Of a DNA stretch of 64,000 nucleotides, positions 26,780 through 53,503 are shown piece after piece. The notes under the pieces were generated by a model. That model did not search any database, had not been told where the DNA came from, and worked only from the letters and a program-made list of their open reading frames with translations. The DNA comes from a virus, in the IMG/VR virus record IMGVR_UViG_3300032334_001259, positions 274,436-338,435 of that record, one strand, 5' to 3'. Each line of letters starts with the position of its first letter. Within the stretch, counting starts at the first letter, position 1. Position numbers and translations under genes: made by a program.

Positions 26780-27058
26780 ATGGATTTTTTCAAATTAGTT
26801 GGTGAAGTTGGATTTCCTATTGCAGCCGCCTGTGCAGGCGGTTATTTTGTTTTTTTAACCTTAAAATTTATATTAGCTGGTGTTACTGGCAGTGTTAATG
26901 GTATCAAGGGTATCATTATGGCACTTGATAATCGTGTAAAAACAATGAACCACGATGTTATAAGAATTGATACACTTATGAGTAATGCTCTTGGTGTTCG
27001 TCCCGATCTTGACCGTATTGCACGTGCAGACGGTAAAAATGATGCAAGGAGAGATTAA
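26780..27058 (+). CDS. Holin-like small membrane protein (paralogue A)
   Basis: 92 residues. One membrane segment (residues 9-34, GFPIAAACAGGYFVFLTL) followed by a helical region and charged tail. The arrangement 'GFPI-A-A ... GY-xx-F', then a helix with VIRID and LD, matches the product at 28992-29363 (GFPIVAAGGVGYM), so the two are paralogues. Holin-like in shape, but unproven. Stop overlaps the next start (TAATG). Confidence 0.6.
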   Translation: MDFFKLVGEVGFPIAAACAGGYFVFLTLKFILAGVTGSVNGIKGIIMALDNRVKTMNHDVIRIDTLMSNALGVRPDLDRIARADGKNDARRD

Positions 27059-27537
27059 TGAAAAAGACAACTATATTACTTCTAACACTATTTTCTACTT
27101 CTGCATTTGCAGGTAATAATATAATGAATTTATCACCACATAATGTTTATAATTTAACACCATCAGGAGCAAATAATATAGCATTTGAAAGTGTTGCTGT
27201 TTTATCAGACCATAATAAAGTAAAAGAACACAAGCCAAATATTGATAAAGTAGCAAAAGGTAAACTAACTGGTAAAATTATTGGTAAACCAATTAATAAA
27301 TTAGAAGCCATTGATGAGTTTCCTATAGATGAACCAGGTGATGGTGTAATTATTGATGATAATGATGAAGTGGTAGTAATTACTACTGATCCTAGAGAGT
27401 GGAAAGGTATTGAAGAGGGTGGATGGGTACCAGAACTAGAACCAAGATGTGCTTGTATTGGTATTGATCATATACCTTTTGATGATCTACAACACGAATT
27501 ACCTGTTGATGACTCAAGTAATAATATAATTTATTAA
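27058..27537 (+). CDS. Secreted acidic protein
   Basis: 159 residues with a Sec signal (MKKTTILLLTLFSTSAFAG). The mature part is acidic with a low-complexity middle (DNDEVVVITTD) and a CAC pair (RCACIGID). No known family. It sits between membrane and secreted genes next to a tail-fibre-like adhesin. Confidence 0.6.
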   Translation: MKKTTILLLTLFSTSAFAGNNIMNLSPHNVYNLTPSGANNIAFESVAVLSDHNKVKEHKPNIDKVAKGKLTGKIIGKPINKLEAIDEFPIDEPGDGVIIDDNDEVVVITTDPREWKGIEEGGWVPELEPRCACIGIDHIPFDDLQHELPVDDSSNNIIY

Positions 27538-27553
27538 AGTTTCGGAGAAAAAA

Positions 27554-27790
27554 ATGAAGAAGATTATTTTAGTAGCAACAATGTTAGCATTTAGCACAAG
27601 TGCATTTGCTGCAGAAAAACCAAAAGCAAAAGCAAAAGAACCATATAAGCCAAAGACAGAATTTTCAAAGTGTGATCCTGTAAATCATCCAGAACTTTGC
27701 AAGTCAAAAGTTCATAAGAAAGCACCAAAGAAACCTAAAGTTGAAGCGTGTGATCCAAAGAAAACTCCAAAAACTTGTAAAAAGAAATAA
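27554..27790 (+). CDS. Secreted lysine-rich protein
   Basis: 78 residues: signal peptide ending AFAA, then Lys/Pro-rich, with four Cys in CDP/C-K patterns (KCDPVNHPELCK and ACDPKKTPKTCK), a duplicated CDP-x-x-x-P-x-x-C unit that could form disulfides or bind metal. Ribosome site CGGAGAAAA. A basic periplasmic protein might bind LPS or DNA; function unknown. Confidence 0.6.
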   Translation: MKKIILVATMLAFSTSAFAAEKPKAKAKEPYKPKTEFSKCDPVNHPELCKSKVHKKAPKKPKVEACDPKKTPKTCKKK

Positions 27791-27828
27791 TTAACTATTT
27801 GTTAAGTATTTGGTGGTAGAATAATGAA

Positions 27829-27996
27829 GTGGAAAATAAACAGTATCCTTACCTGATTCAAGAATACCGTGGTTTCAACGGTAATAGGTATTTTTCTGTT
27901 TATTGTGGTGGTAGATTAGTAGCAAGATTAAGAACAAAACGGGCAGCAGAAGAATATATAATTTTAAACGAAAAGTATAAAAATGAAAATGGATAA
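27829..27996 (+). CDS. Small basic protein, 55 residues
   Basis: GTG frame VENKQYPYLIQEYRGF to NEKYKNENG, basic and beta/helix-like (RYFSVYCGGRLVARLRTKRAA). The start codon is uncertain; no strong ribosome site. It fills the space between the lysine-rich gene and the fibrinogen-like gene. Confidence 0.5.
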   Translation: MENKQYPYLIQEYRGFNGNRYFSVYCGGRLVARLRTKRAAEEYIILNEKYKNENG

Positions 27997-28005
27997 GGAT
28001 TTGAT

Positions 28006-28989
28006 ATGCCCTTTTATGTATGGAACGGAACAGAGTTTACTAAAGATATCAAGTGGGTACCGAGTCAAGATGGTTCAGTGTTTCAAGCCGTTCCTCATGG
28101 TGACTATCAGAATATAGAGGAAGAAATTGTGAATCAGGAAACTATATTAAACTATTATGAAACACTGAATATAAGTGAACGTTCGGCGTTGATTGCAGCA
28201 CTACGCACAGATGAAGTGGCTATATTAGCACGTGAACGTGCTGAACTTATAGCACGTAATCTAGCACTTGGTGTACCTAATGGCAAGACTAGAGAAGAAT
28301 ATAGCACCAGTGCTTGGCAAATAAAACAAGACTATCCAGACAGCGAAGATGGTGTATACTGGATTCGTAATGATAACTTTAACAACGGCAACCCAGTACA
28401 AGTCTATTGCGATATGACTACATTAGGTGGTGGTTGGACATTGGTTGTTCAAAATACTTATTGTAATTGGACAGAAGAACAAGTGTTTAGTCGCAACGCT
28501 ACTACTTGTCCTACTCAACTAGCCACCTATGAAAATAGATCTAGTGAACAGAATTACAGTATTCTATCTTGGGCAGACAAGATCAAACGTGCAGAGTCAG
28601 GATTTGATTTTATGATTTGTGCTCGTGAACATGGATCAGCTGGTGGTGCATGGACTGCTAACGAATCATATTCATTTGTGCAAACTCTTGAAGAAGGTAG
28701 TTTGGGCGATCCAGATTTAGGAACAGCAGGTTGGCGTAAGAACATTACAGAATTGGCACGTTGGGGCTACAATGGTAACACATGGAACTATACGTCAGAA
28801 GCCATGGAAGCACGTATGCCTTGGGTAGGTATTGGTATTAACTATGGTTGGCTAACTACAGATGGATTCCGTGGCGGATGGTGGGGCACAATAATCAGCA
28901 ATCCCAATGGTGGGTTTGATCCAGCACCTTGGTTAAGCAATCTCCAAGACTGTGGAAGTCCAGGTGTCATCTGGTATTGGGTAAGGTAA
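28006..28989 (+). CDS. Tail-fibre-like protein with fibrinogen-like C-terminal domain
   Basis: 327 residues. The first 95 residues are a tail-protein-like stretch (FYVWNGTEFTKDIKWVPSQD). From residue 105 the pattern DGVYWIRN, VQVYCDMTTLGGGWTLV is the start of a fibrinogen-related (FReD) domain, followed by Cys/Trp-rich sequence to the C-terminus. Such domains bind sugars or acetylated groups in animals and some bacteria; in a phage it would be a receptor-binding tip. Start ATG 28006 after GGATAAGGAT. Confidence 0.75.
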   Translation: MPFYVWNGTEFTKDIKWVPSQDGSVFQAVPHGDYQNIEEEIVNQETILNYYETLNISERSALIAALRTDEVAILARERAELIARNLALGVPNGKTREEYSTSAWQIKQDYPDSEDGVYWIRNDNFNNGNPVQVYCDMTTLGGGWTLVVQNTYCNWTEEQVFSRNATTCPTQLATYENRSSEQNYSILSWADKIKRAESGFDFMICAREHGSAGGAWTANESYSFVQTLEEGSLGDPDLGTAGWRKNITELARWGYNGNTWNYTSEAMEARMPWVGIGINYGWLTTDGFRGGWWGTIISNPNGGFDPAPWLSNLQDCGSPGVIWYWVR

Positions 28990-28991
28990 GA

Positions 28992-29363
28992 ATGGAAATG
29001 GATTTAGTAGCAAACATCAACAAATATGGGTTTCCTATTGTAGCAGCAGGTGGAGTAGGTTATATGATCTACTTCGTATGGAAATGGGCAACCACAGAAG
29101 TTAAACCTGTATTAAGTGAAGCAAACACAGTTCTTATTGCACTTATAGATCGTATCCGTATGCTTGACAATGACTTAATACGCCTAAATCAAAAACTTAA
29201 TATTGTCCTCATGTTACGTGGCAAAGAGATTGAAAGTCAACGTCATCTTGATGATGCAAAAGCCGCAGTAGCTGCACAACAAGTAGAGTTGGAAGCAGAA
29301 AAAACTCTTAAAGAAGCTGCTGACAAGTTAAGTGAAGCAAATCAACAAAAGGATAAAAAATAA
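28992..29363 (+). CDS. Holin-like small membrane protein (paralogue B)
   Basis: 123 residues starting MEMDLVANINKYGFPIV, start at 28992 two nt after the adhesin stop. A membrane segment (GFPIVAAGGVGYMIYFVW) then a coiled, charged tail (AAVAAQQVELEAEKTLKEAA). Paralogue of the gene at 26780. Stop overlaps the next ATG. Confidence 0.62.
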   Translation: MEMDLVANINKYGFPIVAAGGVGYMIYFVWKWATTEVKPVLSEANTVLIALIDRIRMLDNDLIRLNQKLNIVLMLRGKEIESQRHLDDAKAAVAAQQVELEAEKTLKEAADKLSEANQQKDKK

Positions 29364-29629: not shown

Positions 29630-31675
29630 TTACTTGGTGCTGGTTCTGTAAACAGTATCCCAACCAGCGCCTGGTGGGTTTGCAGCCATTTCTTCACAAC
29701 GTTCAATCCACATATCATAATATCCATCCATTTGCCCGTCAAATTGACCTTTAATTTTTTTACAAATTTCTATTGCACTTGTAAATCTTTGAGCACGATA
29801 GTCATCCATCATGTGTTTATGATTAGTTTTAGCAGCAAGATATGCAATTCTATCACTGCGTTGTTCTAATACTGTAAAGATATCAACACCTTCTTTTTTA
29901 CCTTTAACCGCAATGCAGTCTAATTCAAGTGTAAAGTAATCATCTTTTACATATTCATTTGTCTTTGGTCCAATAACCATAGCAACATGATATGGTTTAC
30001 TTTGCCCTTCTAAACGTGAAGCAAGATTAACGCCATCACCAAGACAAGTATAATCAAATCGCTGGCTACTACCCATGTTACCAACGACGACAGTAGCAGT
30101 GTTGATACCAAGTCCCATTCCAAAAGGTGGGACTCCCTCTTTGGCAACTTCTTCATTAAACGCATTTAAACTTCCTAACATTTGTAGTGCTGTCTTTACA
30201 GCGTTCTTGGCATGATCTGCATCATCAAGTGGTGCGTTCCAAAATGCCATTTGTGCATCACCGATATATTTGTCAAGTGTGCCTTCATTCTCTAATATCT
30301 TAGCAGTCATCGCTGTCATATAGCGGTTCATTATTTTGGTAAGACCTTGAACGTCACTACCGTAATGCTCAGAAATGCTAGTAAAACCCCTAACATCGGT
30401 AAATATAATTGATAACTCACGTGACTCTCCTCCCAATGCTAATAGTTCTGGATTCTTTTGAAGTTTTTCAACCATTGCAGGTGAAAGATAAGTTCCAAAT
30501 TGTTTCTTTATTTGTTGCTTTTGTAAGAACTCACTGACGAACTTAACACCGTAGGCATGCAAAGCGACCAAGATGATTCCAGCAACAGGAGCGGTTGCGT
30601 CCCATAACTGTAAAGCGTGATTAAACTGATAGAAAGAAAAAGCAATACTGCCGCCGACCAATACAATAACCGAACCAAGCCCAACATATACCCACCTCGT
30701 CAAGAATAATAATAACAGTCCACCAATTACGAGTGCAATAAGTTCTGCACCTTCTGCATAACTTGGACGTTCAATGTTAACCTTATTTGCCAACGTAGCA
30801 ATAATCTTTGCTTGTATATCTTGTGGATATACTGCACCAACAGCAGTAGGAACAGGGTTTGCAATACCAGCAGCACTAACACCAACAATAACAATTGCGC
30901 CATCAAACTTTTCTGGCATATTTGTAACGCTTACTTGTTTGTGTTGTTGACTTAAATCAATCCATACACGACCTAAACTATCAGTTGTGAATATATTTTT
31001 ACCAATACCAAGTTTATCAATTCCAAGTTCATTTAACTTAACTTTCATATTCTTTTCATTATAAAGAACACGAAGTGTTTCAAGACCGATTGTAGGATAA
31101 AGTTTACCACCACTGCCAACAAGCAGCGGAATACGACGATTAACACCATCTATTTCAGGAAATACGTTTGTTGTTCCAACACCAATTGCACTATTTTCTA
31201 AATCTGGAATGTTGGCAATAACACCAGGATAATTGTAAATTCTATCAATAAAATTACTGTTGACAATGGCGGCACCATTTGGGCGTGGTGTGTTCTTGCC
31301 TACGCTACTTGGAATATTACTTAAAATTACTGGATGATTTTTAAGAGTTTCAGCAAGTGCAGCGTCACCACCTTGGCGGTCTGCTTCTGGCATTAACACT
31401 GTCCAAACAACAATGCTTGCACCACGTGCATAAATGTCGTTAATTATATCCGCATATATCTGTCTATTAAACGGCCATTGTCCATACTTGTTAAGTGCGG
31501 CTTCATCAATATTAACTGTATAAATTGGGTTTTCAGTTTGTGTTTTATTTGTGATAAGTTGGTCAAAGTATTTTAACTTGACGCTTTCAACAAATGTAGG
31601 TGATGAAACTTTTATGGCAACTACGATTGCCAATGTTATGAGTGCAGTCCATGGGCTTAATAGAATTTTTTTCAT
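29630..31675 (-). CDS. CHASE2-domain adenylate/guanylate cyclase
   Basis: 681 residues from MKKILLSPWTALI. The N-terminal membrane helix, a periplasmic CHASE2 sensor (IYTVNIDEAALNKYGQWPFN, then DADLAET-like), further membrane helices near residues 310-380, and a class III cyclase: FTDVRGFTSISE (metal Asp), KYIGDAQMAFW (second Asp), GMGLGINTATVVVGNMGS, and CLGDGVNLASRLEG. It should make cAMP or cGMP in response to an external signal. Its own late box GGTAAATA lies 5 nt before the ATG (box 31681-31688). It sits next to FecR and curli genes, a pairing also seen in bacteria. Confidence 0.88.
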   Translation of the reverse strand: MKKILLSPWTALITLAIVVAIKVSSPTFVESVKLKYFDQLITNKTQTENPIYTVNIDEAALNKYGQWPFNRQIYADIINDIYARGASIVVWTVLMPEADRQGGDAALAETLKNHPVILSNIPSSVGKNTPRPNGAAIVNSNFIDRIYNYPGVIANIPDLENSAIGVGTTNVFPEIDGVNRRIPLLVGSGGKLYPTIGLETLRVLYNEKNMKVKLNELGIDKLGIGKNIFTTDSLGRVWIDLSQQHKQVSVTNMPEKFDGAIVIVGVSAAGIANPVPTAVGAVYPQDIQAKIIATLANKVNIERPSYAEGAELIALVIGGLLLLFLTRWVYVGLGSVIVLVGGSIAFSFYQFNHALQLWDATAPVAGIILVALHAYGVKFVSEFLQKQQIKKQFGTYLSPAMVEKLQKNPELLALGGESRELSIIFTDVRGFTSISEHYGSDVQGLTKIMNRYMTAMTAKILENEGTLDKYIGDAQMAFWNAPLDDADHAKNAVKTALQMLGSLNAFNEEVAKEGVPPFGMGLGINTATVVVGNMGSSQRFDYTCLGDGVNLASRLEGQSKPYHVAMVIGPKTNEYVKDDYFTLELDCIAVKGKKEGVDIFTVLEQRSDRIAYLAAKTNHKHMMDDYRAQRFTSAIEICKKIKGQFDGQMDGYYDMWIERCEEMAANPPGAGWDTVYRTSTK

Positions 31676-31680
31676 GGTAA

Positions 31681-31688
31681 TATTTACC
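31681..31688 (-). promoter_or_regulatory. T4-like late promoter box (cyclase)
   Basis: GGTAAATA on the minus strand, 5 nt (TTACC), then the cyclase ATG at 31675. It follows directly after the terminator at 31698-31721. Confidence 0.6.
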
Positions 31689-31691
31689 CAA

Positions 31692-31721
31692 GAAAAAACC
31701 CCGTAAATTTCTTTACGGGGT
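31692..31721 (-). terminator. Intrinsic terminator
   Basis: Stem ACCCCGTAAA / TTTACGGGGT (31698-31707 with 31712-31721), GAAA loop, and a T tract on the minus strand (TTTTTT). It ends the GHKL ATPase message (stop 31731). Confidence 0.8.
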
Positions 31722-31730
31722 CTTATTAAA

Positions 31731-33608
31731 TTAAAATTCAAAGACTTTTTCTAAATTATCAGAAATTAAAATACCATCTTCAATTTCTTTAACTTTTACT
31801 TTAAGTTGCTTTGTGCAGTCAGTTAAATCATAAATTAAACTATCCGCATGAGTAGTAAGTGAAACTGGGTGCAATGCCTTTTCAATTTCTTCTTGATCAT
31901 ACCCAATTCGTTTCTTTTTTGCCATTGAGTAAACCACCGCACGAGTAACTAACCATGCCATTTCATTAGATGCAATTTCTTTTGCTGCATCTTTTATTTT
32001 TTCAAATATTTCTTCTTCTCTGGTTTGATATTCTGCAACTAGTTCTTCTACTGCCTTATCTACAACTTCATACATGCAATTTACATAAATTGCCTGATCT
32101 TCAATATATTCTGCAGCACGATGTTCTAAACTTGTAGCACTTGCTTTTTCTAAATCATCTTCTGTTCTAATAAATTGAATTGCAGGCACTGTGGCGGCAA
32201 TTTGAAAATTACTGCCTGGCACATATGGAATTTGTTTTGTTTTAGGACTTTTTACAGCGTTGAAACTATTGCCAGCACCTTTTTTCTTACTAGGTGCCAA
32301 GAATCCTGTTTGCCCTTTATCTCTTGTTACGGTAACCATAAGTTCATCAAGTAATTGTTGTGCACGTTTAGTAATATCTTCACTACTGACATTTGATGGT
32401 GCATATTCTCTAATTTTTTCTTTAAACCATTCAGGCATATTTTCACGAATTTCACGTGCATATTCTAACATTTGAATTTCAGTTTTTTCAGCATTTGGTT
32501 TTAATATTTTTTGACGATACTGATCTGGTTGTACATTGCTTTCGTCTGGCAACTCAACAAAAATGCGAAAATATCTAGCACTGTATAAAACACCTAATGC
32601 ACCTGCAATCTTTTTCCATTTACTATCAGTTGCAACATCATAAATTTCATTTTTATAAACAAGACCACTAAAGGAAGCAACAGTAGCATAACCTAATGCA
32701 GTAGTAGTTGGTTTATCTTGGTTAGCATATCCTGAAAAACCACTTGGACCATCATAAACATACCAAATTTTTATACCACTTCCATTTTTGTCATTAACAA
32801 ATTCTTGAATAACCTTATCGGGTTTTGACATAGAAGTATGTGTAATATGTTCTAAAATTGTTAAGAATCGTATATTAAGATGTTTATGTTTTGAAAAACC
32901 AACTTCTAATCGCAAACTGACGGTATTTGGAATTCGGAAAAAACGACGATACATTTGATTGATTAACCATGCACTAGGTTTCTGTTCTTCACCATCATAG
33001 GGACGTTCAACCGTATTTTGATTAGGATTATTACCACAAAGCACAATTGCTGTCCAATCTTCATTGGTATCCCATGGTATTGTTGCAAGTCCAGTAATAT
33101 CCCAAACATCCTTATACCCAGTTGGACTTTCACCATCTGTTTCTACAAAATCATAACGGCAATAATTTGCTTGTCCTTTGCTATTAATTTCTTTTCGTAA
33201 AAGTGAAATGGAAACTTTCTTATTCTTACATGAAATCCAAATCATTCCTTCTTGATTTACACCCATTGCTGTAACTTTTGCGCCGATACCAAAATTTTGA
33301 TCAAGGCGTTGAATTTTGTTGAGTGATGATGATAAATTAGTAACTTCTCGCAATTCTTTGGCAGACATACCAGTGCCATTATTCCAGAAAGTAAGTTTTT
33401 TTATATTAAAACCAAAATCACCAAAAACATTTTCGTTAAATCCAAAAACAGAAGGATCAGTTTCTAGTATTTGAATTTTTGGTTCTTTTGCTGTGATAGA
33501 TGCTTCAATGGAATTTTGAATTAATTCTCGTATCATCATTTCACTTGGGGCTTGTTCAATTGTACGAGTAATAAGATAAGACGTATTTGTAACGTTTAAT
33601 GCAGTCAT
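31731..33608 (-). CDS. GHKL-type ATPase, unknown role
   Basis: 625 residues with the Bergerat fold motifs: N box RELIQNSIEA, G1 NNGTGMS, G2 NFGIGAKVTAM, near residues 24-115. No histidine-kinase phosphoacceptor or response regulator is seen, so it resembles Hsp90/MORC/MutL-type ATPases rather than a sensor kinase. The middle contains long beta-rich and helical regions; the C-terminus is acidic. Ribosome site AAGGAAA before ATG 33608. Role unknown; defence-related ATPases of this class exist in phages and bacteria. Confidence 0.72.
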   Translation of the reverse strand: MTALNVTNTSYLITRTIEQAPSEMMIRELIQNSIEASITAKEPKIQILETDPSVFGFNENVFGDFGFNIKKLTFWNNGTGMSAKELREVTNLSSSLNKIQRLDQNFGIGAKVTAMGVNQEGMIWISCKNKKVSISLLRKEINSKGQANYCRYDFVETDGESPTGYKDVWDITGLATIPWDTNEDWTAIVLCGNNPNQNTVERPYDGEEQKPSAWLINQMYRRFFRIPNTVSLRLEVGFSKHKHLNIRFLTILEHITHTSMSKPDKVIQEFVNDKNGSGIKIWYVYDGPSGFSGYANQDKPTTTALGYATVASFSGLVYKNEIYDVATDSKWKKIAGALGVLYSARYFRIFVELPDESNVQPDQYRQKILKPNAEKTEIQMLEYAREIRENMPEWFKEKIREYAPSNVSSEDITKRAQQLLDELMVTVTRDKGQTGFLAPSKKKGAGNSFNAVKSPKTKQIPYVPGSNFQIAATVPAIQFIRTEDDLEKASATSLEHRAAEYIEDQAIYVNCMYEVVDKAVEELVAEYQTREEEIFEKIKDAAKEIASNEMAWLVTRAVVYSMAKKKRIGYDQEEIEKALHPVSLTTHADSLIYDLTDCTKQLKVKVKEIEDGILISDNLEKVFEF

Positions 33609-33887: not shown

Positions 33888-34889
33888 TCAATGTATTTGT
33901 TGTAAGTTTTTTAAAAAACTATTTGTGCATTTTTCCCAAGTATAATCTTTGCTTATTTTATGTACATTTTTGCGATTACAGTCTAGTGCATATTCAATGG
34001 CAATTTGTAAATTGTCATCCATAGCACCATTTACACCATTTATTATAATATCAGTTGGACCTGTAACTGGATATGCTGCAATTGGTGTTCCACATGCCAT
34101 TGCTTCTAACATTACCACACCAAAGGTATCAGTCTTACTTGGAAATACAAATACATCTGAGTTAGCATAATATTCAGCAAGTGCATCACCATGTTTATAA
34201 CCTGTAAAAATTACGTCGTTATATTTCTTTTTTAATTCTGCCAAGTATGGACCATCACCAACTAATATTTTTGTTCCGTCAGTTTTTAGACTGCAAAAAT
34301 CATCTAAACCTTTTTCTATGCTTGCACGACTTACGCAAAGTAATATAGGTTTAGTTGCTTGATTTGACTTACGTTTTTTGGGATTAAATATTTTAGTATC
34401 AACTCCACGATTCCATACAGCAAGACGTTCAAATCCACGTCCTTGTAATTCTTGTCGCATAGTTTCATTTGTAACTAAAACCCGTGTGCTAAACTTATGA
34501 AACCAACGAATAAACCAATAACCCCAATCTACGGGTATATTAAAATATTTGTTAAAGTATTCTGGAAATTTTGTATGATAACTTGTGTTATGTGGAATAC
34601 TGCGCTTATCTACTTTGCAATACCAACGTGCGGCAAATCCTAATGGACCCTCTGTAGCAATATGAATAGCATCTGGCTTAAACGATTCAATCATGGGACC
34701 AACACGCCAAATATTAAGTGTAAGTTTTATTTCTGGATAACCTGGCGCTGGCACAGTCTTAAATTGACTAGGTTCAATAACCTGAACTATATGTCCAAGT
34801 CGTTCTAACTCTGCAACAGTGTTTATAAGAGTTGTAACAACACCATTTACACTTGGTGCGTATGTATCAGTTACCAGTGAGATTCGCAT
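33888..34889 (-). CDS. GT4 glycosyltransferase, likely glycolipid (Agt-like)
   Basis: 333 residues, GT-B fold: N-terminal VTDTYAPSVNGVVTTL (glycine-rich lobe of lipid GTs), HIATEGPLGFAARWYC, and the donor-site FPSKTDTFGVVMLEAMACG with the E-x7-E motif. Its 23-nt overlap with the PlcP-like gene matches the bacterial plcP-agt operon, in which PlcP makes diacylglycerol from phospholipid and Agt adds glucose or glucuronate. So a glycolipid-forming enzyme is likely, although plain GT4 is all that sequence proves. Confidence 0.75.
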   Translation of the reverse strand: MRISLVTDTYAPSVNGVVTTLINTVAELERLGHIVQVIEPSQFKTVPAPGYPEIKLTLNIWRVGPMIESFKPDAIHIATEGPLGFAARWYCKVDKRSIPHNTSYHTKFPEYFNKYFNIPVDWGYWFIRWFHKFSTRVLVTNETMRQELQGRGFERLAVWNRGVDTKIFNPKKRKSNQATKPILLCVSRASIEKGLDDFCSLKTDGTKILVGDGPYLAELKKKYNDVIFTGYKHGDALAEYYANSDVFVFPSKTDTFGVVMLEAMACGTPIAAYPVTGPTDIIINGVNGAMDDNLQIAIEYALDCNRKNVHKISKDYTWEKCTNSFLKNLQQIH

Positions 34890-35616
34890 TTTTATATTTA
34901 ATTATAAACCAATGACCATTATAATCTTCAACTAATGCTGTGCAACTTTCAACCCAATCACCGCAATTCATATATTTTATATCACCTATTTCACGTATAT
35001 TTGCGTGATGTATATGTCCGCATATAATTCCATTTGCACCACGTGTTCTCGCAAAACTAGCAAGATTATCTTCAAAATCACCAATAAAGTTTACTGCCTT
35101 TTTAACTTTATATTTTGCCCAAGCACTTAAACTCCAATATGGTAACTTAAATAAATTTCTAATTCTTGCTATAACAACATTTAATGCAATTGTTAAATCA
35201 TATGCCCAACTACCAATATGACTTAACCATTTCATATTTTTAATAACAACATCAAACTGGTCTCCATGCATAACAATATATTTTTTACCATCTAAGCTGG
35301 CATGTGTAATATTATCCACGAGACAAATATTACCAAAGCTATACTCTCCAAATGTTCGTAAAAATTCATCGTGATTTCCTGGCAAATAATAGACTTGAAC
35401 GCCTTTTCTTGCCAAACGCATAAGTTTTTGGATTACATCATTATGATGTTGCGGCCAGTAAAAACTTTTAGCCATTGCCCAACCATCAATTATGTCACCA
35501 ACAAGATACAGACGTTCACACTCAAAAGTTTTAATAAATTCAAGCAAATCATTTGCTTGACTCATACGAGTGCCTAAATGCACATCGCTTATAAAGACAC
35601 TACGATAATAATTCAT
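34867..35616 (-). CDS. PlcP-like metallophosphoesterase
   Basis: 249 residues. Calcineurin-like motifs in order: FISDVHLGT, VGDIIDGW, LPGNHDEF, VMHGDQFD, CGHIHHAN, and a characteristic MNCGDWVESCTA near the end. The whole pattern matches PlcP, a manganese phospholipase C of phosphate-starved bacteria that is often mis-annotated as UDP-2,3-diacylglucosamine hydrolase (LpxH). LpxH is less likely because of the C-terminal GDWVESCTA. A late-type box (35623-35630) lies 6 nt before ATG 35616, then the GT4 gene follows. Confidence 0.78.
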   Translation of the reverse strand: MNYYRSVFISDVHLGTRMSQANDLLEFIKTFECERLYLVGDIIDGWAMAKSFYWPQHHNDVIQKLMRLARKGVQVYYLPGNHDEFLRTFGEYSFGNICLVDNITHASLDGKKYIVMHGDQFDVVIKNMKWLSHIGSWAYDLTIALNVVIARIRNLFKLPYWSLSAWAKYKVKKAVNFIGDFEDNLASFARTRGANGIICGHIHHANIREIGDIKYMNCGDWVESCTALVEDYNGHWFIIKYKNANLTGN

Positions 35617-35660: not shown

Positions 35661-36191
35661 TTAGTGTTTAGTATAAGAATAACCACTACAAGGAGGAGTT
35701 AAACATTGTATATTCATATTGCTACTATCTGGTGTATTAAGGTTATCTTGCACAACAGTTGCACCAATATCACTACCACTCAAATTAAGAACAAAACTTT
35801 TATTAGCATCGCCAGTTTGGGTAATACTTGCATTATTATTGTTGTTTTGTGTTGTAGCATCCAAATTAATGGCGGCAGTATGATTACCGCTACCATTTTG
35901 TAAAATAGTAAGTGTGTTGTTATTGTTATTTGAAGCATTTGTATTAGTATTGTAAGTCCCATCATAATTTTTTCCTACTGGTGGTGTTCCAATAAAAGCA
36001 AGATGATCTCCGCTTCCTTCTTGAACTATTGTATGATTATTACTATCGCCTTTGTTTAGTAGAATTGCTTCACTATTTCCACTTGAACTTTGGTCTAGGT
36101 AAAAAATATTTCCATTTCCAACTTGATCAATATAAACACTGCCTGCGTAACAAGGTGTGGTAATCATTAGTAAGAATAATAATTTTTTCAT
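35661..36191 (-). CDS. Curlin-repeat protein, CsgA/B-like (short)
   Basis: 176 residues with signal peptide MKKLLFLLMITTPCYAG. The mature part has curlin-like units: VYIDQVGNGN, LDQSSSGNS, NHTIVQEGSGDH, NTLTILQNGSGNH, SITQTGDANK, each with a Q/N-x-G-x-x-N spacing, but interrupted by Asn-rich linkers. C-terminal Cys pair (QCLTPPCSG) is unusual for curlins. It follows the FecR gene by a 4-nt overlap. Confidence 0.75.
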   Translation of the reverse strand: MKKLLFLLMITTPCYAGSVYIDQVGNGNIFYLDQSSSGNSEAILLNKGDSNNHTIVQEGSGDHLAFIGTPPVGKNYDGTYNTNTNASNNNNNTLTILQNGSGNHTAAINLDATTQNNNNNASITQTGDANKSFVLNLSGSDIGATVVQDNLNTPDSSNMNIQCLTPPCSGYSYTKH

Positions 36192-37306
36192 TGTGATTGT
36201 GCAATCCTTATCAAGCTACCGCCAGCATGTTGAACATTTTGAATAAGTGTAGTTCCATCTTGTGTTAATTGTATAGTTGTTGCACTATCCTTATCAACTC
36301 CAATTTGGCTAAAACTATTTGCGCCAACACGATATAGCACAACGGTTTGGTCTTGTTTATAATATAATAAACCAGCAGCTTTATTAGGTTTATAATTTGG
36401 CAACATTTGATTTTCACCACCCAACATACTTTCAAGTAGTGCAGCATTTAGCAAGTCAAGTTGATTTACCAATAATACAGAATCAAGTTGGTTAATATCA
36501 AGTTTGTTGAATCCCATAAGATAATTCATATCAAGTTCATCAAACTTTAGAAAATCTTTATCAAGAAAATTAATATCAAGTGCAGTTTTTTGTGTTGTTT
36601 CATTTTCTGCTGATTTCTTTGGTGGGGTTAAAATTAACATATTATTAATTTGTTCTTGATTTAACACAAGTATAACGGGTTTAGTTGGATTCTGTTCTTT
36701 TGCACTTGTAGTTGTTGCTTGAAATGGTTTATCAAGATGAACTGTACCCATATCAGTAGTGACATCAATCTTTCCAGTAACACAATCTTTTTCAATATTT
36801 TTGTAACCTACAGGACAGCTTGGCAACAGAACTACAAGACTGCGACCTAATTCATCAACTGTCATACTAAAGTCAGTTCCACGAACACCAATGACAGCAG
36901 TTGGTGTTTCAATTTTAACTTGCTGTGGATTTTCTTTTGCTATTTGTCCACTGGCATAGGTTGCAGTTCCAATAGCAACTTTAATACCAAGTTTGCTTGC
37001 ACTTGCATTATTTGGATCATATACAAAGTCATCAATTACAAGTTTACTTTGTTCAGTGATTTGCACTTTGGTATCATCTTCGAAAGTAATACCTACACGT
37101 GCACGAGCGGTGACAACGGCATCATTCATTTCAACGCCGCTGTTCACCGCACTTGGTATACTTTCTTTATCTCGTTGAATTTCAGTTGGTCCAGTTTGTT
37201 CAGTTACTTTACCAACAGCCGCCCAACAATCAGTTACTGCTGTTAACAGTAATACTGTTGTTAGAACCGTTGCTCTTGATATCAACTTTACTATCGATTG
37301 TGCCAC
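36188..37306 (-). CDS. FecR-domain protein with curlin-like tail
   Basis: 372 residues; N-terminal signal segment (VLTTVLLLTAVTDCWAA) and FecR domain with the hallmark PTAVIGVRGTDFSM near residue 135. It then has a Leu/Asp-rich part built of LD-x-N-x-LD units (residues 245-285) and a C-terminal tail (TTLIQNVQHAGGSLIRIA) like a curlin repeat. FecR proteins transmit or scaffold surface signals. Start uncertain: the frame begins 76 nt inside the upstream curlin gene, with ATG at 37306 or TTG at 37285. Paired with the CHASE2 cyclase nearby. Confidence 0.78.
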   Translation of the reverse strand: MAQSIVKLISRATVLTTVLLLTAVTDCWAAVGKVTEQTGPTEIQRDKESIPSAVNSGVEMNDAVVTARARVGITFEDDTKVQITEQSKLVIDDFVYDPNNASASKLGIKVAIGTATYASGQIAKENPQQVKIETPTAVIGVRGTDFSMTVDELGRSLVVLLPSCPVGYKNIEKDCVTGKIDVTTDMGTVHLDKPFQATTTSAKEQNPTKPVILVLNQEQINNMLILTPPKKSAENETTQKTALDINFLDKDFLKFDELDMNYLMGFNKLDINQLDSVLLVNQLDLLNAALLESMLGGENQMLPNYKPNKAAGLLYYKQDQTVVLYRVGANSFSQIGVDKDSATTIQLTQDGTTLIQNVQHAGGSLIRIAQSQ

Positions 37307-37916
37307 CTTGTGTCACTCCAACGTTATTTGAACTACCTGTTACATCAACTTTTGCATCAAAACCAGTAGCGCCAGCAGGACCACTTTGTTGAACGCTTAC
37401 TACATTACTGTCACCAGTTGCTTTAATATCAGCCTTTGCACCTAACATATTAGTAGTGCTACTGTTGATACTTGCATTATTATTGTCACCAGTTACAGCA
37501 ATACCCATAGTGCTTTTTGCACTTGCAGTCACACTTAATGTATTTCCACTACCAGTTGCGTTTGCAGTAATGCTTGTATCAGTACAAGTTGTTGTTGGTG
37601 CGGCACCGCAAGCAACATTCACAGTGTTGCTATCACCAGTTACAGTGCTGTTTAAACTACTACTTGCACCTTGCATATTAACATTATGTGTATTTTGGCT
37701 TCCTACTTGATCAATGCTTACAGTTTGCGTATTACCATTAAAAGTGGCACGAGTCGTGTCATTACCGACTTCATTACCACTACCTGTTTGAGTGATGCCG
37801 ATAGTGCTTCCACTACCAACTTGGTCGATATACACGTTATTGGTTGTACCTGCAAACACATTGCTTGCATACAGCAACCCAACAGCCATTAATGCTGTTC
37901 TTAATACCTTATTCAA
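37230..37916 (-). CDS. Curlin-repeat protein, CsgA/B-like (long)
   Basis: 228 residues, signal peptide ending SNVFAG. Repeats such as NVYIDQVGSGSTIGITQTGSG and VSIDQVGSQNTHNVNMQG match the curlin S/N-x-x-x-x-Q-x-G-x-x-N pattern; about seven more relaxed Asn/Ser/Thr-rich repeats follow. Start is TTG at 37916 behind GGAGTAGG, and the ribosome site lies in the palindrome ACTCCTAAAGGAGT. Its 3' end overlaps the FecR start by 76 nt in another frame. Confidence 0.8.
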   Translation of the reverse strand: MNKVLRTALMAVGLLYASNVFAGTTNNVYIDQVGSGSTIGITQTGSGNEVGNDTTRATFNGNTQTVSIDQVGSQNTHNVNMQGASSSLNSTVTGDSNTVNVACGAAPTTTCTDTSITANATGSGNTLSVTASAKSTMGIAVTGDNNNASINSSTTNMLGAKADIKATGDSNVVSVQQSGPAGATGFDAKVDVTGSSNNVGVTQGGTIDSKVDIKSNGSNNSITVNSSN

Positions 37917-37941
37917 ATGCCTACTCCTTTAGGAGTATTGC

Positions 37942-38751
37942 TTACTTTTTATCGGAAGCAAAACCCCATAAACCTTTATTTGCACCCTGTTTGATCATAT
38001 CCACAACGGCTGCTTCTGTTGCCAGACGCACAGCATATGTGGTGGGTTCGTTGACATTTGCACCTGCTTCTAATTGAATACTCATAGTTCCTTGGTCAAG
38101 AAATGTTAGTGCATTTCCATTTCCACCAGTGCTTAAAATAGTTTTTGTGGCACCAGCACTTACAAGGACTTCACCTGTATGAACACTGATTAATCGTAAA
38201 ACAACTGTGACTACATCAGTTCTATATTGTTGACTTATTCCAATACCTAACATGGCAGCTCCTGCACCACCACTTTGAACATTCGTATCGTAACCTACGA
38301 TACCACCTTCTACCATTACACCAGCAATAAGCATTGGTGATAATGGTTTTGCATCTTTACCTTCATAAGTTTCACGTTGATTACGAATAAGTTGACGTTC
38401 TTTAATAAGATCATCTAAACCCACACGTTCTACAACTTGAAACCATTTACCACGACCAGCATCTTGCAATGCTTTAATTAAAAATACTTCACCACCTTGT
38501 GTTACTGCACTGCTTAATACACTAAATTTGTCATTTTCTTTACGTTGTCCAGTCTTATCATTAAAACCATACATGGCAATAGTGATAGGTGGACCCGCTG
38601 GTGGTGGCATACTTGATAATTCATTATATGTACTTTTTTTAATTATTTGTGGCATGGGCGTAGCCTTTTCAGGAACCTTTGCCTCATATGGTATGGTTGT
38701 ATTACAACCAGCTAACATCATTGCCATAATTGAAAATACTATCTTACGCAT
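37942..38751 (-). CDS. csgG: CsgG, curli secretion pore lipoprotein
   Basis: 269 residues, the length of E. coli CsgG (277). Lipoprotein signal MRKIVFSIMAMMLAGC (lipobox LAGC, Cys-16). Family features: PITIAMYGFNDKTGQRK, GKWFQVVERVGLDDLIKERQ, AGVMVEGGIVGYDTN, QQYRTDVVTVVLRLISVHTGEV. The protein forms an outer-membrane nonamer that exports curlin subunits. Start overlaps the csgF stop as TAATG, so they are cotranslated. Confidence 0.92.
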   Translation of the reverse strand: MRKIVFSIMAMMLAGCNTTIPYEAKVPEKATPMPQIIKKSTYNELSSMPPPAGPPITIAMYGFNDKTGQRKENDKFSVLSSAVTQGGEVFLIKALQDAGRGKWFQVVERVGLDDLIKERQLIRNQRETYEGKDAKPLSPMLIAGVMVEGGIVGYDTNVQSGGAGAAMLGIGISQQYRTDVVTVVLRLISVHTGEVLVSAGATKTILSTGGNGNALTFLDQGTMSIQLEAGANVNEPTTYAVRLATEAAVVDMIKQGANKGLWGFASDKK

Positions 38752-39200
38752 TAGAACTTGAAACTCCCTATTGGAACTGTGACATCAGTCCGATTACCAG
38801 TAGCATCAATGACAGTAAGAGTAATAGTTTGGTTAACAGTATCTTTTAACCATGTTAAAGTGCTACCCTCAAACTGCATTGTACCAGTGGTTGCCCCATC
38901 AGCAAACATAGCATTGCTTAATTGCAAACTTAATTGTGCATAGATACGGCTTTCCAGATTGTTGAGAAACTTATTTAAATTTGTGTTATTTGCCTTTGAT
39001 TCAGCTGCTTCTTTTGCAGCTTTTTCTTCTGCTTCACGTGCTTTACGACGAGTGTATTCTTCATTTTCAATAGTCAGTGCATGACTACTGTAACCATCGC
39101 CGCTAAACTCTGGATTTTTAAAACCAAAAACCATTCCACTTGCAAAGACAGGTGTAGAAAACATCATTCCAGTGATGAAAAAAGGCACAATTTTACGCAT
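38751..39200 (-). CDS. csgF: CsgF, curli nucleation/anchoring factor
   Basis: 149 residues, signal peptide ending VFASG. The mature N-terminus VFGFKNPEFSGD matches CsgF (F-x-N-P-x-F), the segment that binds the CsgG pore, and the C-terminal part (GSTLTWLKDTVNQTITLTV, DVTVPIGSF) is the beta-rich CsgF tail. A middle stretch (EYTRRKAREAEEKAAKEAAESK) is a charged insertion not in E. coli CsgF. The ribosome site AGAGGATT lies in a hairpin (AATCCTC/GAGGATT) just before ATG 39200; a late box is at 39216-39223. Confidence 0.85.
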   Translation of the reverse strand: MRKIVPFFITGMMFSTPVFASGMVFGFKNPEFSGDGYSSHALTIENEEYTRRKAREAEEKAAKEAAESKANNTNLNKFLNNLESRIYAQLSLQLSNAMFADGATTGTMQFEGSTLTWLKDTVNQTITLTVIDATGNRTDVTVPIGSFKF

Positions 39201-39215: not shown

Positions 39216-39223
39216 TATTTATT
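39216..39223 (-). promoter_or_regulatory. Late-type box and ribosome-site hairpin (csgF)
   Basis: AATAAATA on the minus strand lies in the loop of a hairpin AATCCTC ... GAGGATT (about 39204-39235) whose 3' arm contains the csgF ribosome site. Transcription from a promoter further upstream would place the ribosome site in a stem; from this box, only the 3' arm would be transcribed and it would be free. Confidence 0.45.
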
Positions 39224-39243: not shown

Positions 39244-39771
39244 TTAAGACAATTTCTTTATAGGTCTGCGAAATTCAACTATTGATGCTACAGGATATGC
39301 GCTTATGTTAACACTGTCGTCTTGGTTTCCACCAAGAAGTTGAACATACTTTATACCATTATCAAATGTCCAACCATAAAAGAAAGCGACATGGCGACCA
39401 CTTCCACCGCTACGGCGCATTAAGACAATATCGCCTGGTTGGGGGTCTGTAACTTTTATTCCGTAGTTATGATAACTTGCTGCACTTAAATTACCAGTGG
39501 AATCATAACCAGCACGTTCTAATACATAGTTTATAAAACCAGCACACCAAGGAATTTTTACAGGATCAATATCTAATATGGCTTGTAATTCTTTACGATT
39601 CTTTTTTGCATCATAACCATTATAATTCATGGCTATTTGCATTATATCACCACGTGTTTCACCAAATGTTAAACCATTGGAGTCCCAATTAAATGGAATC
39701 GTTAATTCAAATGCGCTTGCACTATTGAAAGGTATTAGACAAATACCAATTATTGCTAATAATCTTTTCAT
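39244..39771 (-). CDS. Secreted cysteine peptidase/amidase, TIGR02594/CHAP-like
   Basis: About 175 residues. Signal peptide (RLLAIIGICLIPFNSASA), then IPWCAGFINYVLERAG (catalytic Cys), QPGDIVLMRR and GRHVAFFYGW (His): the layout of NlpC/P60-CHAP family murein amidases. It may open the murein for the curli machine or release virions. The ATG at 39771 is preferred since a late box AATAAATA (39776-39783) lies 4 nt upstream; another ATG lies one codon before. Confidence 0.75.
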   Translation of the reverse strand: MKRLLAIIGICLIPFNSASAFELTIPFNWDSNGLTFGETRGDIMQIAMNYNGYDAKKNRKELQAILDIDPVKIPWCAGFINYVLERAGYDSTGNLSAASYHNYGIKVTDPQPGDIVLMRRSGGSGRHVAFFYGWTFDNGIKYVQLLGGNQDDSVNISAYPVASIVEFRRPIKKLS

Positions 39772-39775
39772 CATA

Positions 39776-39793: not shown

Positions 39794-39869
39794 TGGCTGG
39801 GGAGCCAGGGATCGAACCTGGAATCTCTTGAGTCAAAGTCAAGCGTGTTGCCAATTCCACCACTCCCCA
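39794..39869 (-). tRNA. tRNA-Gln (anticodon TTG)
   Basis: 76 nt, CCA encoded. Acceptor TGGGGAG/CTCCCCA starts with U1-A72, as in bacterial tRNA-Gln. Loop CTTTGAC gives anticodon TTG. Promoter at 39881-39909 stands upstream. Confidence 0.92.
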
Positions 39870-45526: not shown

Positions 45527-46618
45527 TTAGAAAAGATCAACAGTTTCCCATGGCAATCCATCCTTACCAAAGTGACCATAGTTTGTAGTAGAACTATAGA
45601 TAGGACGGAACAGGTCAAACTTATTGATAATACCAAGTGGTGTTAGATCAACATTATCACGTATCCATTTTGTCAAACCACGACTATCGCCATTGCTTTC
45701 AACATAGAAACTCATTGGTTGTTCAAGACCAATAGCATAAGATACCTGAACTGTTGCCCAATCTGCACGACCACTTGCTACAATATTCTTGGCAAGATAA
45801 CGCATCATATAAGCTGCAGAACGGTCAACCTTTGTAGGGTCTTTACCACTAAATGCACCACCACCATGTGGAGCATAACCACCATAAGTATCAACAATAA
45901 TCTTACGACCAGTTAGACCAGTATCACCATCTGGACCACCAATAACAAAGCGTCCAGTAGGATTGATATGAAACTCTGTGCGAGTATCAACTAAGCGGTC
46001 AGGAAGAACACTACGAATAAGTTGTTCTACTCGTGTGCGAACCGCATACATATCAGTATCTTCACTGTGTTGCGTGGAACAAACTACCTTGTCAATACGA
46101 TAAGGAAGATTATCATCATTGTATTCAACAGTAATTTGGCTTTTGGCATCTGGACCAAGCCAATCACGACCGCTTTTACGATGTTCAGCAAGTGCCTTTA
46201 CAACTTCATGGCTGTAATGAATAGCACTTGGCATGAAGTTTGGTGTTTCATTAGAAGCATAACCAAACATTAAGCCTTGGTCACCAGCACCAAATGTATC
46301 AGTGCCAAGTGCAATATCAGCACTTTGTCCATGCATTAGATTAAGAATATTGACCGTGCGCCAATTAAATCCATTTTGCTCGTAACCAATATCTTTAATA
46401 GTATTGATAACAGCGGCATCAACTAATTGTGGATCAAGTTCGCCTTTATATTCACCTGCGATTACCACTTGATTAGTAGTAACAAGTGTTTCACACGCAC
46501 ACCGATAAGATTTATCCTGTGGTGCCATCATCAAATCCAGAATCGCATCACTGATTGCATCAGCGACCTTATCTGGATGTCCTTCACTTACGCTTTCACT
46601 AGTAAACAGATAACTCAT
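45527..46618 (-). CDS. metK: S-adenosylmethionine synthetase
   Basis: 363 residues, slightly shorter than E. coli MetK (384). All domains are seen: TSESVSEGHPDKVADAISDA (start), GAGDQGLMFGYA (ATP/Met loop), GPDGDTGLTGRKI, HGGGAFSGKDPTKVDRSAAY. It makes SAM from methionine and ATP. It would refill SAM for two radical SAM enzymes, a methyltransferase and a SpeD-like decarboxylase in this window. Ribosome site AAGGAAAA before ATG 46618. Confidence 0.95.
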   Translation of the reverse strand: MSYLFTSESVSEGHPDKVADAISDAILDLMMAPQDKSYRCACETLVTTNQVVIAGEYKGELDPQLVDAAVINTIKDIGYEQNGFNWRTVNILNLMHGQSADIALGTDTFGAGDQGLMFGYASNETPNFMPSAIHYSHEVVKALAEHRKSGRDWLGPDAKSQITVEYNDDNLPYRIDKVVCSTQHSEDTDMYAVRTRVEQLIRSVLPDRLVDTRTEFHINPTGRFVIGGPDGDTGLTGRKIIVDTYGGYAPHGGGAFSGKDPTKVDRSAAYMMRYLAKNIVASGRADWATVQVSYAIGLEQPMSFYVESNGDSRGLTKWIRDNVDLTPLGIINKFDLFRPIYSSTTNYGHFGKDGLPWETVDLF

Positions 46619-46640
46619 TATGTATTTTTCCTTTTTAATA

Positions 46641-47030
46641 CTATTTTCCGTATTTGTAGTCTAATTTTTTATAAAAACTTTTTCGTAATCTAACGATAGG
46701 TTCTGGTTCTTTTATATTTCTTTTATTAGCAGAACCTTTTCCACCATCTGTGTAATTTTCTAATATTCCTGTATTGTTGTCTAATCTACCATAATGTTTT
46801 ATCAAACCTTTTTCAATTTCATATGCTTCATCTTCTGATAAATCATCAATGATAATATTAATTCTATCGTTATAGCGAGGAACTAAAATGTCATCATGCT
46901 TACGAAAAGCACGACTTCCTTTTCCTTTCCCAATGTAATAAGGAGTTCCATCTTCACGAAGATATTCGTAAACATAATATCTCCTATATACATTTCCTGT
47001 TGCTGTGTGTGTTCTAAAAGATTTATGCAT
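46641..47030 (-). CDS. GIY-YIG domain protein
   Basis: 129 residues. YYVYEYLREDGTPYYIGKGKG near residue 18 is the GIY-YIG motif. No NUMOD repeats and no tRNA next to it. Single-domain nuclease; starts 8 nt before the end of the UvdE gene. Confidence 0.72.
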   Translation of the reverse strand: MHKSFRTHTATGNVYRRYYVYEYLREDGTPYYIGKGKGSRAFRKHDDILVPRYNDRINIIIDDLSEDEAYEIEKGLIKHYGRLDNNTGILENYTDGGKGSANKRNIKEPEPIVRLRKSFYKKLDYKYGK

Positions 47031-48051
47031 TTGTCAGATATTTGTATAATTCAGTGCTTGCAAGGTTCTTGGCTTTACTTTCTACTTGAATATCAAAGTT
47101 TTCCCAAAACTCTGCAACATATTGGTTGACAGCAGTATTCCACATGAAATCACTGTGAGCACGAAGTTTTTGTTTTTTATGTCCACTTTCAAGTAGTGTT
47201 GTCATGGTAGGACGAACGCTATTGTCATGATTAATAAGAATAGACTCACTGCTGACGCTATAATGCATAGTTGGGCGCACACCACGCCAACTGTCAATAA
47301 CACGCTTGATTTTGTCATCAGTAGGTTCAATATACTCTCCCGTTTTAACCCAATGATGGTGACAATCAAAAACAGTAGGAATGATATCTGCAAGAGATAA
47401 AGTGTCATCCAAACCATAACTATTCTCCTCGTTTTCTATTGTGACGAGGTTTCTGGCTTCTGTTGAAAGTTGGTTCCAAATGGCTCTAATACCGTCTGGA
47501 CCTTTACGACCCGATATATGGACATTAATTTTAAAACCATGGTCGTGAAAGCTATTCCCATAACCCATCCATCTAGCCAAATCAGTGTGATACTCAAATT
47601 CACGGATTGAGTTGGTAACAATAGTTTCGTTATCACTAGCCAAAACGCAAAACTGACCAGGATGAAAACTAACCCGTACATCAAGCATACGAGCGGTCTC
47701 GCCAATAATAGCGCATTTTTTGGCAATGGCTTCTTTAACATCTGGTAACTGATAAAAATAAGAGTAAGTTGACTCAGTATAAACTGGAAACATATCGCTA
47801 GATAGCCTAACCATGCGTTGTCGTGGTTCCAAAGTTCCAACACGTTTGACCAATTCAAGTGTAGCATTTGTATTGTGCTCCATAATATCCCACAACCGTT
47901 GTTCGGCAACGGCACGTTCTTGGCGGTTAAGCCAAGCTACTGTGGTTGTTTTATTGTTAAGTTTCAGTGCTTCATCCTTGGGTTTAAACCCATCCACTTG
48001 GCGTGGAAGATCAAGCCATTTGCAGCAAAAACCGATACGTTTGTGTGTCAT
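47023..48051 (-). CDS. uvdE: UV damage endonuclease
   Basis: 342 residues. UvdE/Uve1 TIM-barrel: RIGFCCKWL, SFHPGQFCVLASDN, INVHISGRK, VTIENEENSY, and C-terminal DFMW with metal-binding His/Glu (FDCHHHW, HYSVSSES). It nicks beside UV photoproducts and abasic sites. A near-leaderless sigma70 promoter (48058-48085) drives it. Confidence 0.9.
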   Translation of the reverse strand: MTHKRIGFCCKWLDLPRQVDGFKPKDEALKLNNKTTTVAWLNRQERAVAEQRLWDIMEHNTNATLELVKRVGTLEPRQRMVRLSSDMFPVYTESTYSYFYQLPDVKEAIAKKCAIIGETARMLDVRVSFHPGQFCVLASDNETIVTNSIREFEYHTDLARWMGYGNSFHDHGFKINVHISGRKGPDGIRAIWNQLSTEARNLVTIENEENSYGLDDTLSLADIIPTVFDCHHHWVKTGEYIEPTDDKIKRVIDSWRGVRPTMHYSVSSESILINHDNSVRPTMTTLLESGHKKQKLRAHSDFMWNTAVNQYVAEFWENFDIQVESKAKNLASTELYKYLTNA

Positions 48052-48057
48052 ATTACC

Positions 48058-48085
48058 ACTATAACATAGTTTTTTACAGTGTCAA
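48058..48085 (-). promoter_or_regulatory. Sigma70-type early promoter (uvdE)
   Basis: Minus strand TTGACA (48085-48080), 16-bp spacer, TATAGT (48063-48058); the ATG lies 6 nt past the -10 box. Confidence 0.7.
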
Positions 48086-48648
48086 GAGAAAATTTCAGGG
48101 TATAAACTAGCAATATGGAATTGTTGGTCAGAATTAATATAATTTCTTATATGAGGAATTATATTGTTTGCCATTATTTCGTGCCCACGAGGACTAAAGT
48201 GATTTAGTCTTTTATCATTGTTTTTGTAATCCCATGTAGGATCATCAGCTTTACTGCAAATCATTAATCCACCAGGTGCAAGAAACCACAGACCATAATC
48301 TTTATCTAAAAAACCATGTTCAAAACAAGGAATATTAATCATTTTAATATTTCTTATTTTACATTGTTCTTGCATATCTTTGATTAGTAATCGTTGAATA
48401 GTTTTAGCAAATTCAATATCAGCCAATCCTTCATTATACAATCTTGTAAATTCAGTATGGCATACTATTATAACATCTGGTTGTGGGACTAAAGTTTTAA
48501 TAAAATTATCATAAATTTTATACTGACTTTGTCCTCTAAATCCATAACAACTTATCATTTCAAGATTAAGTTCATTACATACTCGTTCTATCCAAGTGTT
48601 TTTGTAACTGTATGTAAAACTATCACCTGTAATTAATATACGCATCAA
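48082..48648 (-). CDS. SGNH-like protein (5 of 5)
   Basis: 188 residues starting MMRILITGDSFTYSYKNTW (block I Ser), CYGFRGQSQYKIYDNF (block II) and LNHFSPRGHEIMANN near the end (His). Its start overlaps the stop of the carbamoyltransferase gene by 4 nt, so the two are cotranslated, a pairing that suggests both modify the same sugar. Substrate unknown. Confidence 0.7.
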   Translation of the reverse strand: MMRILITGDSFTYSYKNTWIERVCNELNLEMISCYGFRGQSQYKIYDNFIKTLVPQPDVIIVCHTEFTRLYNEGLADIEFAKTIQRLLIKDMQEQCKIRNIKMINIPCFEHGFLDKDYGLWFLAPGGLMICSKADDPTWDYKNNDKRLNHFSPRGHEIMANNIIPHIRNYINSDQQFHIASLYPEIFS

Positions 48649-50108: not shown

Positions 50109-50116
50109 GTTTACCC

Positions 50117-51411: not shown

Positions 51412-51420
51412 TTGGCGTCC

Positions 51421-52119: not shown

Positions 52120-52123
52120 TAAA

Positions 52124-52163: not shown

Positions 52164-52169
52164 TATTTC

Positions 52170-52367: not shown

Positions 52368-52394
52368 ATACTCTCTCTGTTATATTATTTTACC

Positions 52395-52423: not shown

Positions 52424-52436
52424 GTAGTTTTTAACG

Positions 52437-52620: not shown

Positions 52621-52628
52621 AAAATCTT

Positions 52629-53411: not shown

Positions 53412-53427
53412 ATCTGCCTCTAAAAAA

Positions 53428-53502: not shown

Positions 53503-53503
53503 T

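Follow-up and report, generated by a model that had tools for sequence, protein, structure and literature searches.

Curli-type modules in pelagiphages and in a jumbo phage

Curli-type (type VIII) secretion genes were reported in pelagiphages in 2020 as csgF and csgG (PMC7029224) and in 2022 as the wider set csgF-csgG-curlin-FecR-curlin-cyclase (PMC9599517), with HTVC008M and HTVC023P-type podoviruses as carriers. CsgE is absent from this pelagiphage module, the adenylate cyclase is frequent but not constant in the published phage set, and transfer between myo- and podoviruses has already been reported (PMC9599517). Discussion of the module has so far dealt with phages that infect the marine SAR11 and OM43 bacteria. 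Here we analyse a 64,000-nucleotide stretch of viral DNA (the window; positions 274436–338435, the end of the 338,435-base record IMGVR_UViG_3300032334_001259) that encodes a module of the same gene order: csgF, csgG, two curlin-repeat genes with a FecR gene between them, and a class III adenylate cyclase gene with a CHASE2 sensor, together with a pair of small genes, H93a and H93b. The sequence-only reading of this DNA had taken the CsgG-CsgF-curlin-FecR set to be undescribed, a claim overturned by the 2022 report and by the annotation of the set in HTVC008M and in phage Melnitz. New here are the jumbo-phage lineage, the repeated exchange of the module and a widened definition that takes in the H93 pair, the cyclase and an exported FecR protein; no published description of the module in jumbo phages was found in a search that lay mostly outside subscription journals.

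The locus differs from the pelagiphage module in belonging to a 338-kb jumbo phage of another lineage, with a CsgG protein about 52% identical to that of HTVC008M, in having its H93 pair on the far side of the cyclase gene and on the opposite strand, and in three genes inserted before the cyclase gene. In both HTVC008M and Melnitz, H93 homologues stand directly before csgF and the same kind of cyclase follows curlin 2. The deposited annotation of Methylophilales phage Melnitz (CsgG 45% identical) holds the full module including FecR and the CHASE2 cyclase; its authors recognised only csgF and csgG and proposed a lysis role (PMC9004378). Alphaproteobacterial curli loci (Erythrobacter, Hyphomonas, Devosia and others) likewise have csgF-csgG with curlin-repeat genes nearby, but their CsgG proteins are roughly 38–49% identical to that of this phage, and the flanks of csgG, up to 8 kb long, in about 75 bacterial loci contained no gene for FecR, a CHASE2 cyclase or H93. 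The E. coli csgBAC-csgDEFG system has CsgG, CsgF and curlin repeats in common with the record, which differs from it in carrying a cyclase and FecR and in giving no CsgE match anywhere along its length (the E. coli control matched), as the sequence-only reading had noticed within the block; CsgC and CsgD were not searched for. In Campylobacterota, a FecR-domain envelope protein also lies beside a CHASE2 cyclase, in clusters that differ in carrying a phosphodiesterase and a TPR protein and for which curli genes are not mentioned (PMC9239204).

The sequence-only reading had proposed that two curlin-repeat proteins, a FecR protein, CsgG and CsgF stand in one minus-strand block (35661–39200), and all five pass Pfam profile cut-offs. 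The csgF gene (38751..39200, minus strand) matches Pfam CsgF (E = 8e-13) and phrog_35372 (E = 1e-48) and encodes a signal peptide and the expected GFKNPEF start; its product is predicted to be an accessory protein or extracellular chaperone of the CsgG pore. Adjacent to it on the same strand, csgG (37942..38751) matches Pfam CsgG (E = 4.6e-45), has the lipobox LAGC that had also been picked out from the letters, and falls in a phage clade in the CsgG tree. Its profile matches the solved E. coli CsgG over the whole length (E = 6e-97), and the product is a predicted outer-membrane lipoprotein export pore. Curlin-repeat protein 1 (37230..37916, minus strand, TTG start; Pfam Curlin_rpt E = 9e-7) gives an AlphaFold model of a repetitive β-solenoid with short strands about every 11 residues and a mean predicted local distance difference test score (pLDDT) of 86, and the best structural relatives of this model are viral 'Curlin associated' proteins (E = 5e-9), consistent with a predicted secreted β-solenoid fibre subunit. 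Curlin-repeat protein 2 (35661..36191, minus strand; Curlin_rpt E = 4e-7 in three stretches) is a putative second fibre subunit or nucleator. Every exported component of the module carries a signal peptide or a lipobox.

The block is wider than the sequence-only reading stated, which missed two further parts of the module, the cyclase gene (29630–31741) and the H93 pair (26780–29363). The FecR-domain protein (36188–37306, minus strand) matches Pfam FecR (E = 1.1e-9) and phrog_37870 (E = 2e-90), and probably starts at a GTG codon that would give a 77-base overlap with curlin 1; the Pfam FecR domain is present in 22/22 family members. By hydropathy its N-terminus reads as a signal peptide, with no other strong hydrophobic or membrane segment. 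At least two short glutamine motifs occur in the last 60 residues of 89 of 111 distinct FecR proteins, compared with 3.4 after shuffling, a count over sequences that are related to each other and whose tails give a weak profile match to curlins. An FecI-type iron regulator was considered for this protein and rejected: no match to Sigma70_r4_2, the domain of FecI-type (extracytoplasmic function) sigma factors, was found on the record, which together with the signal peptide makes the 'iron regulator' label of PMC9599517 doubtful. In Campylobacterota, CHASE2 cyclases are encoded in clusters with FecR-domain outer-membrane proteins (PMC9239204); by analogy, the module's FecR protein is most likely the partner of its CHASE2 adenylate cyclase in the envelope.

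This cyclase gene, the last of the module (29630–31741, minus strand), matches Pfam CHASE2 (E = 4e-37) and Guanylate_cyc (E = 2e-18), and a cyclase search of the record gave a match at window positions 29891–30421, within a 703-residue open frame. The metal-binding motif is kept in 95 of 102 relatives and the lysine-GD catalytic motif in all 102, and the enzyme should, judged from these sequences, make cyclic AMP (cAMP). The substrate-recognition motif, as searched, is present in 75 of the 102 cyclases. A second open frame with a cyclase-profile match lies near the module in loci L166, L167, L173, L175, L179, L211, L231 and L246.

H93a (26780–27058, plus strand) and its paralogue H93b (28998–29363, plus strand; phrog_18771 E = 3e-30) encode proteins of about 93 residues beyond the cyclase gene, on the strand opposite to the module. 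H93a belongs to phrog_18771, which has no annotated function in PHROG, and has an N-terminal membrane helix and a coiled coil; the H93b start at 28998 is taken from alignment, the open frame being listed from 28929. Searches of H93 against Pfam, NCBIfam and the PDB gave no match above noise, holin families included, and a resemblance to YvrJ is very weak and non-significant; a holin identity was set aside on this basis. One or more 'histidine kinase' genes were reported before csgF in the podovirus set (PMC9599517), and from the position of H93 in HTVC008M and Melnitz we infer that the pair is what that study calls HK. If so, the label is doubtful, because H93 has no histidine-kinase family match and no histidine conserved in the alignment, and we rejected this assignment; the only HATPase match on the record is an ATPase at 31731–33608. 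H93a and H93b are conserved partners of the module that had earlier gone unexplained, and the pair is newly added to the system's definition.

Linkage, exchange and selection

The record carries a Gp23 (T4-type) capsid gene and a terminase gene together with the curli block. Among annotated phages the closest are Pseudomonas phage PA5oct and its kin (capsid 68.6% and terminase 53.6% identical), Sinorhizobium phage Phosso, Vibrio phage 2.275.O and Cronobacter phage GAP32, whose genomes all measure about 280–470 kb. The capsid tree and the identity to PA5oct place the capsid protein within the PA5oct/GAP32-type jumbo phage clade, and because these are its nearest relatives the record is assigned on its gene sequences to a jumbo myophage of the PA5oct (Arenbergviridae)/GAP32 type, far from pelagimyophages. 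Near relatives with CsgG proteins 67–85% identical have long runs of flanking genes in common with this phage, and the block arrangement recurs in many other IMG/VR contigs. This recurrence, together with the capsid and terminase genes on the record, makes a single mis-assembly or a prophage chimera unlikely.

A broad IMG/VR scan showed that relatives are encoded by 559 of at least 599 stretches with the CsgG pattern. The loci fetched for comparison were the best-scoring ones, mutually related and partly overlapping rather than a random sample. Of 68 newly fetched csgG loci, 60 extend at least 2 kb downstream, and all of these have FecR; CsgF, FecR, the cyclase and H93 occur together in 32 of the 36 best-covered loci, the other four lacking only H93 within the retrieved stretch. 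A reverse scan starting from H93a found a module gene in 72 of 80 loci; of the 50 loci whose downstream sequence runs to 4 kb or more, 49 have one, and the sole exception starts at a contig end. The genes follow three main arrangements: csgF through cyclase with a convergent H93 beyond (41 loci), H93 before csgF (27) and H93 between FecR and an inverted cyclase (11). That the genes stay linked despite such reshuffling speaks for their working as one unit. A search of 50,697 phage records found relatives of FecR in only six, HTVC008M and the Melnitz strains; the same six are the only ones with H93 relatives, apart from one negligible match (E = 0.9), and the CHASE2 cyclase is likewise found in six curli-phage records, with only weak matches to the catalytic domain alone elsewhere, in two Acinetobacter records.

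In two trees (support 100/99 and 100/100), viral CsgG makes up a single supported branch, separate from the bacterial CsgG sequences sampled. Five contigs from bacterial metagenome-assembled genomes (L043–L047) branch with the phages and carry FecR and/or the cyclase and/or H93; binned in Rhodobacteraceae, Flavobacteriaceae and Pelagibacter genomes, they are probably phage contigs in bacterial bins and were left out of the bacterial csgG locus count. OR851715.1, named Salmonella phage S.Kent, was also considered as a CsgG carrier and discarded; it is a 1,499-base unverified fragment with an enterobacterial-type csgG, probably host DNA. By their capsid genes the carriers split into two distant clades, one of nine jumbo records including this one and the other of T4-like records with HTVC008M, so that the module is present in at least nine capsid-bearing jumbo-phage records. 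The jumbo CsgG proteins are not one clade (approximately unbiased test, p-AU = 8e-5), neither are the jumbo cyclases (p-AU = 1e-4), and the CsgG and cyclase trees place this phage differently. These conflicts argue that the module or parts of it moved between jumbo and T4-like phages more than once.

The module genes are under purifying selection. Omega lies between 0.03 and 0.24 among close relatives for csgF, csgG, both curlins, FecR and the cyclase, where estimable, distant pairs being saturated; such low values, the curlins included, speak for functional exported products. The exact T4-type late box TATAAATA is enriched in relatives: 21 of 126 distinct csgF upstreams contain it, at a distance of 13–33 bases from the start (mean 1.8 and maximum 5 in shuffles), and it also occurs in 25 of 220 H93 upstreams (shuffle mean 2.8). 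These counts are taken over related sequences and overstate independence. The upstreams of inner module genes in relatives gave no enrichment over shuffles. In this phage, a AATAAATA box one mismatch from the late box lies at 39216..39223 (minus strand), 23 bases before the csgF start, a position that agrees with that of the exact boxes in relatives.

Proposed function and competing explanations

We consider it slightly better than even that the module is a late-expressed, CsgE-less curli exporter of amyloid-like proteins that is tied to cAMP by an exported FecR protein and the CHASE2 cyclase. Once the jumbo myophage has reached the late stage of infecting its Gram-negative host, CsgG would form an outer-membrane pore that CsgF caps or guides, and both curlins and probably the FecR protein would reach the periplasm through the host Sec system. 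The curlins would then leave through the pore and form amyloid-like β-solenoid fibres on the infected cell. FecR would touch the export apparatus or the fibre, possibly by its glutamine-motif tail, and the cyclase would convert the state that FecR senses into cAMP; as no receptor that binds cyclic nucleoside monophosphates was found on the phage record, the signal would act through the host's own cAMP receptor. The two H93 proteins would be a dedicated membrane component, and the benefit would lie in a changed cell surface, by aggregation or a superinfection block, and in cAMP reprogramming. Both surface hypotheses had already been stated for the pelagiphage set (PMC7029224, PMC9599517); the sequence-only reading had raised them too, with virion binding as a third possible use of the exported amyloid. 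A stronger form of this proposal, a self-contained device in which FecR reads the fibres and the state of the CsgG pore, the CHASE2 cyclase answers with cAMP, the H93 pair is an obligate membrane component and the whole is traded repeatedly between T4-like and jumbo phages, is possible but doubtful.

If true, export of an amyloid encoded by a phage would be a remarkable means of changing the surface of an infected cell. The presence of the same unit in unrelated jumbo phages, its exchange more than once and its purifying selection argue for a general benefit rather than a quirk of streamlined marine hosts, and with H93a, H93b and the FecR-cyclase pair in the system's definition its function becomes directly testable. 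Several observations weigh against fibre export with signalling. Infection by Melnitz, which carries the same module, gave no clumping (PMC9004378). A fold search of the PDB with the curlin 1 model returned no significant match, the FecR model (pLDDT 48) is too poor to use, and the likeness of the FecR tail to a curlin strand is based on a short motif and on low-scoring profile matches. The T4-like late boxes that the sequence-only reading saw before the block are reduced to the one-mismatch box, as no exact TATAAATA lies near the block in this window and the window as a whole has five against ten expected by chance. The virus record may also be incomplete, which makes absences on it provisional.

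A role in lysis timing would extend the hypothesis of PMC9004378 by the H93 pair, with CsgG and CsgF as a pinhole or depolarising pore and H93 as a holin-like protein. The small size of H93, its single hydrophobic helix with a coiled coil, its faint likeness to YvrJ and the late boxes before H93 and csgF in relatives would suit such a unit, as would a CHAP hydrolase gene (39244–39774, minus strand) that lies directly 5′ of csgF here and encodes a signal peptide and a protein similar to a baseplate hub or tail lysozyme PHROG. This adjacency is confined to this phage and its near-identical contig, however, and a separate endolysin is encoded about 20 kb from the module (15587–16201, minus strand; phrog_181, E = 2.5e-90), so a lysis unit built on the CHAP gene was rejected. 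CsgG, as an outer-membrane lipoprotein, would sit in the wrong membrane for a pinholin, lysis has no need of two curlins, FecR and a cyclase held under purifying selection, and the Melnitz curlins that earlier authors thought missing are annotated there; we regard lysis timing as unlikely. Nutrient uptake, proposed in PMC7029224 and PMC9599517, would have an ungated CsgG pore admit nutrients or cofactors while FecR and the cyclase sense nutrient state, in keeping with the lack of a CsgE gate on the record and the oligotrophic marine hosts of known carriers. It leaves unexplained the conserved curlins and CsgF, their low omega and their fixed place beside csgG, and the FecI-type sigma domain of an iron-sensing FecR circuit is missing from the record; we regard uptake as a shade more improbable still.

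A further alternative is surface signalling without fibres, in which monomeric or cell-bound curlins would mainly give FecR and the CHASE2 cyclase a ligand or sensor load, with cAMP reprogramming of host metabolism as the aim. Several rearrangements notwithstanding, the cyclase keeps its link with the pore genes in almost every long locus, its metal and lysine motifs are conserved, and curlin 2 is variable or missing in many loci, which would be odd for an essential fibre part. Yet the module constantly includes CsgF and curlin 1, just as true curli systems do, and the incomplete conservation of the substrate-recognition motif speaks against a module devoted to signalling, which we likewise judge improbable. 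That bacterial chromosomal DNA was joined to phage DNA, or that the block is a decaying passenger, is very improbable: although the record may be incomplete, the capsid and terminase genes on it, the syntenic phage contigs with common flanking genes, the nine capsid-bearing jumbo records, the separate viral CsgG branch and the low omega all oppose an artefact. Neither the mis-assembly nor the bacterial chromosome that the sequence-only reading had been wary of is indicated, and profile, synteny, tree and selection evidence bears out its virus-encoded curli-type export set.

Neighbouring genes

Three genes lie between curlin 2 and the cyclase on the minus strand and were recognised by Pfam matches: the HATPase_c_3 ATPase (31731–33608), a glycosyltransferase (33888–34889) and a metallophosphoesterase (34867–35616). 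They are absent or different in most relatives and are insertions rather than constant module members. At the other end of the block, a tRNA-Gln gene (39794–39869, minus strand) lies near the CHAP gene, before csgF. The flank at 45527–62231 encodes a Nol-like carbamoyltransferase (48645), a dehydrogenase (55578) and a 951-residue protein (59376) without a match in PHROGs or phage records. It also includes an Hsp20 small heat-shock gene (55059–55493, minus strand; phrog_432), directly 5′ of which a ROSE_3 RNA thermometer match (55488–55549, minus strand) scores 43.5 bits against a cut-off of 43, possibly marking a temperature-controlled chaperone in a phage.

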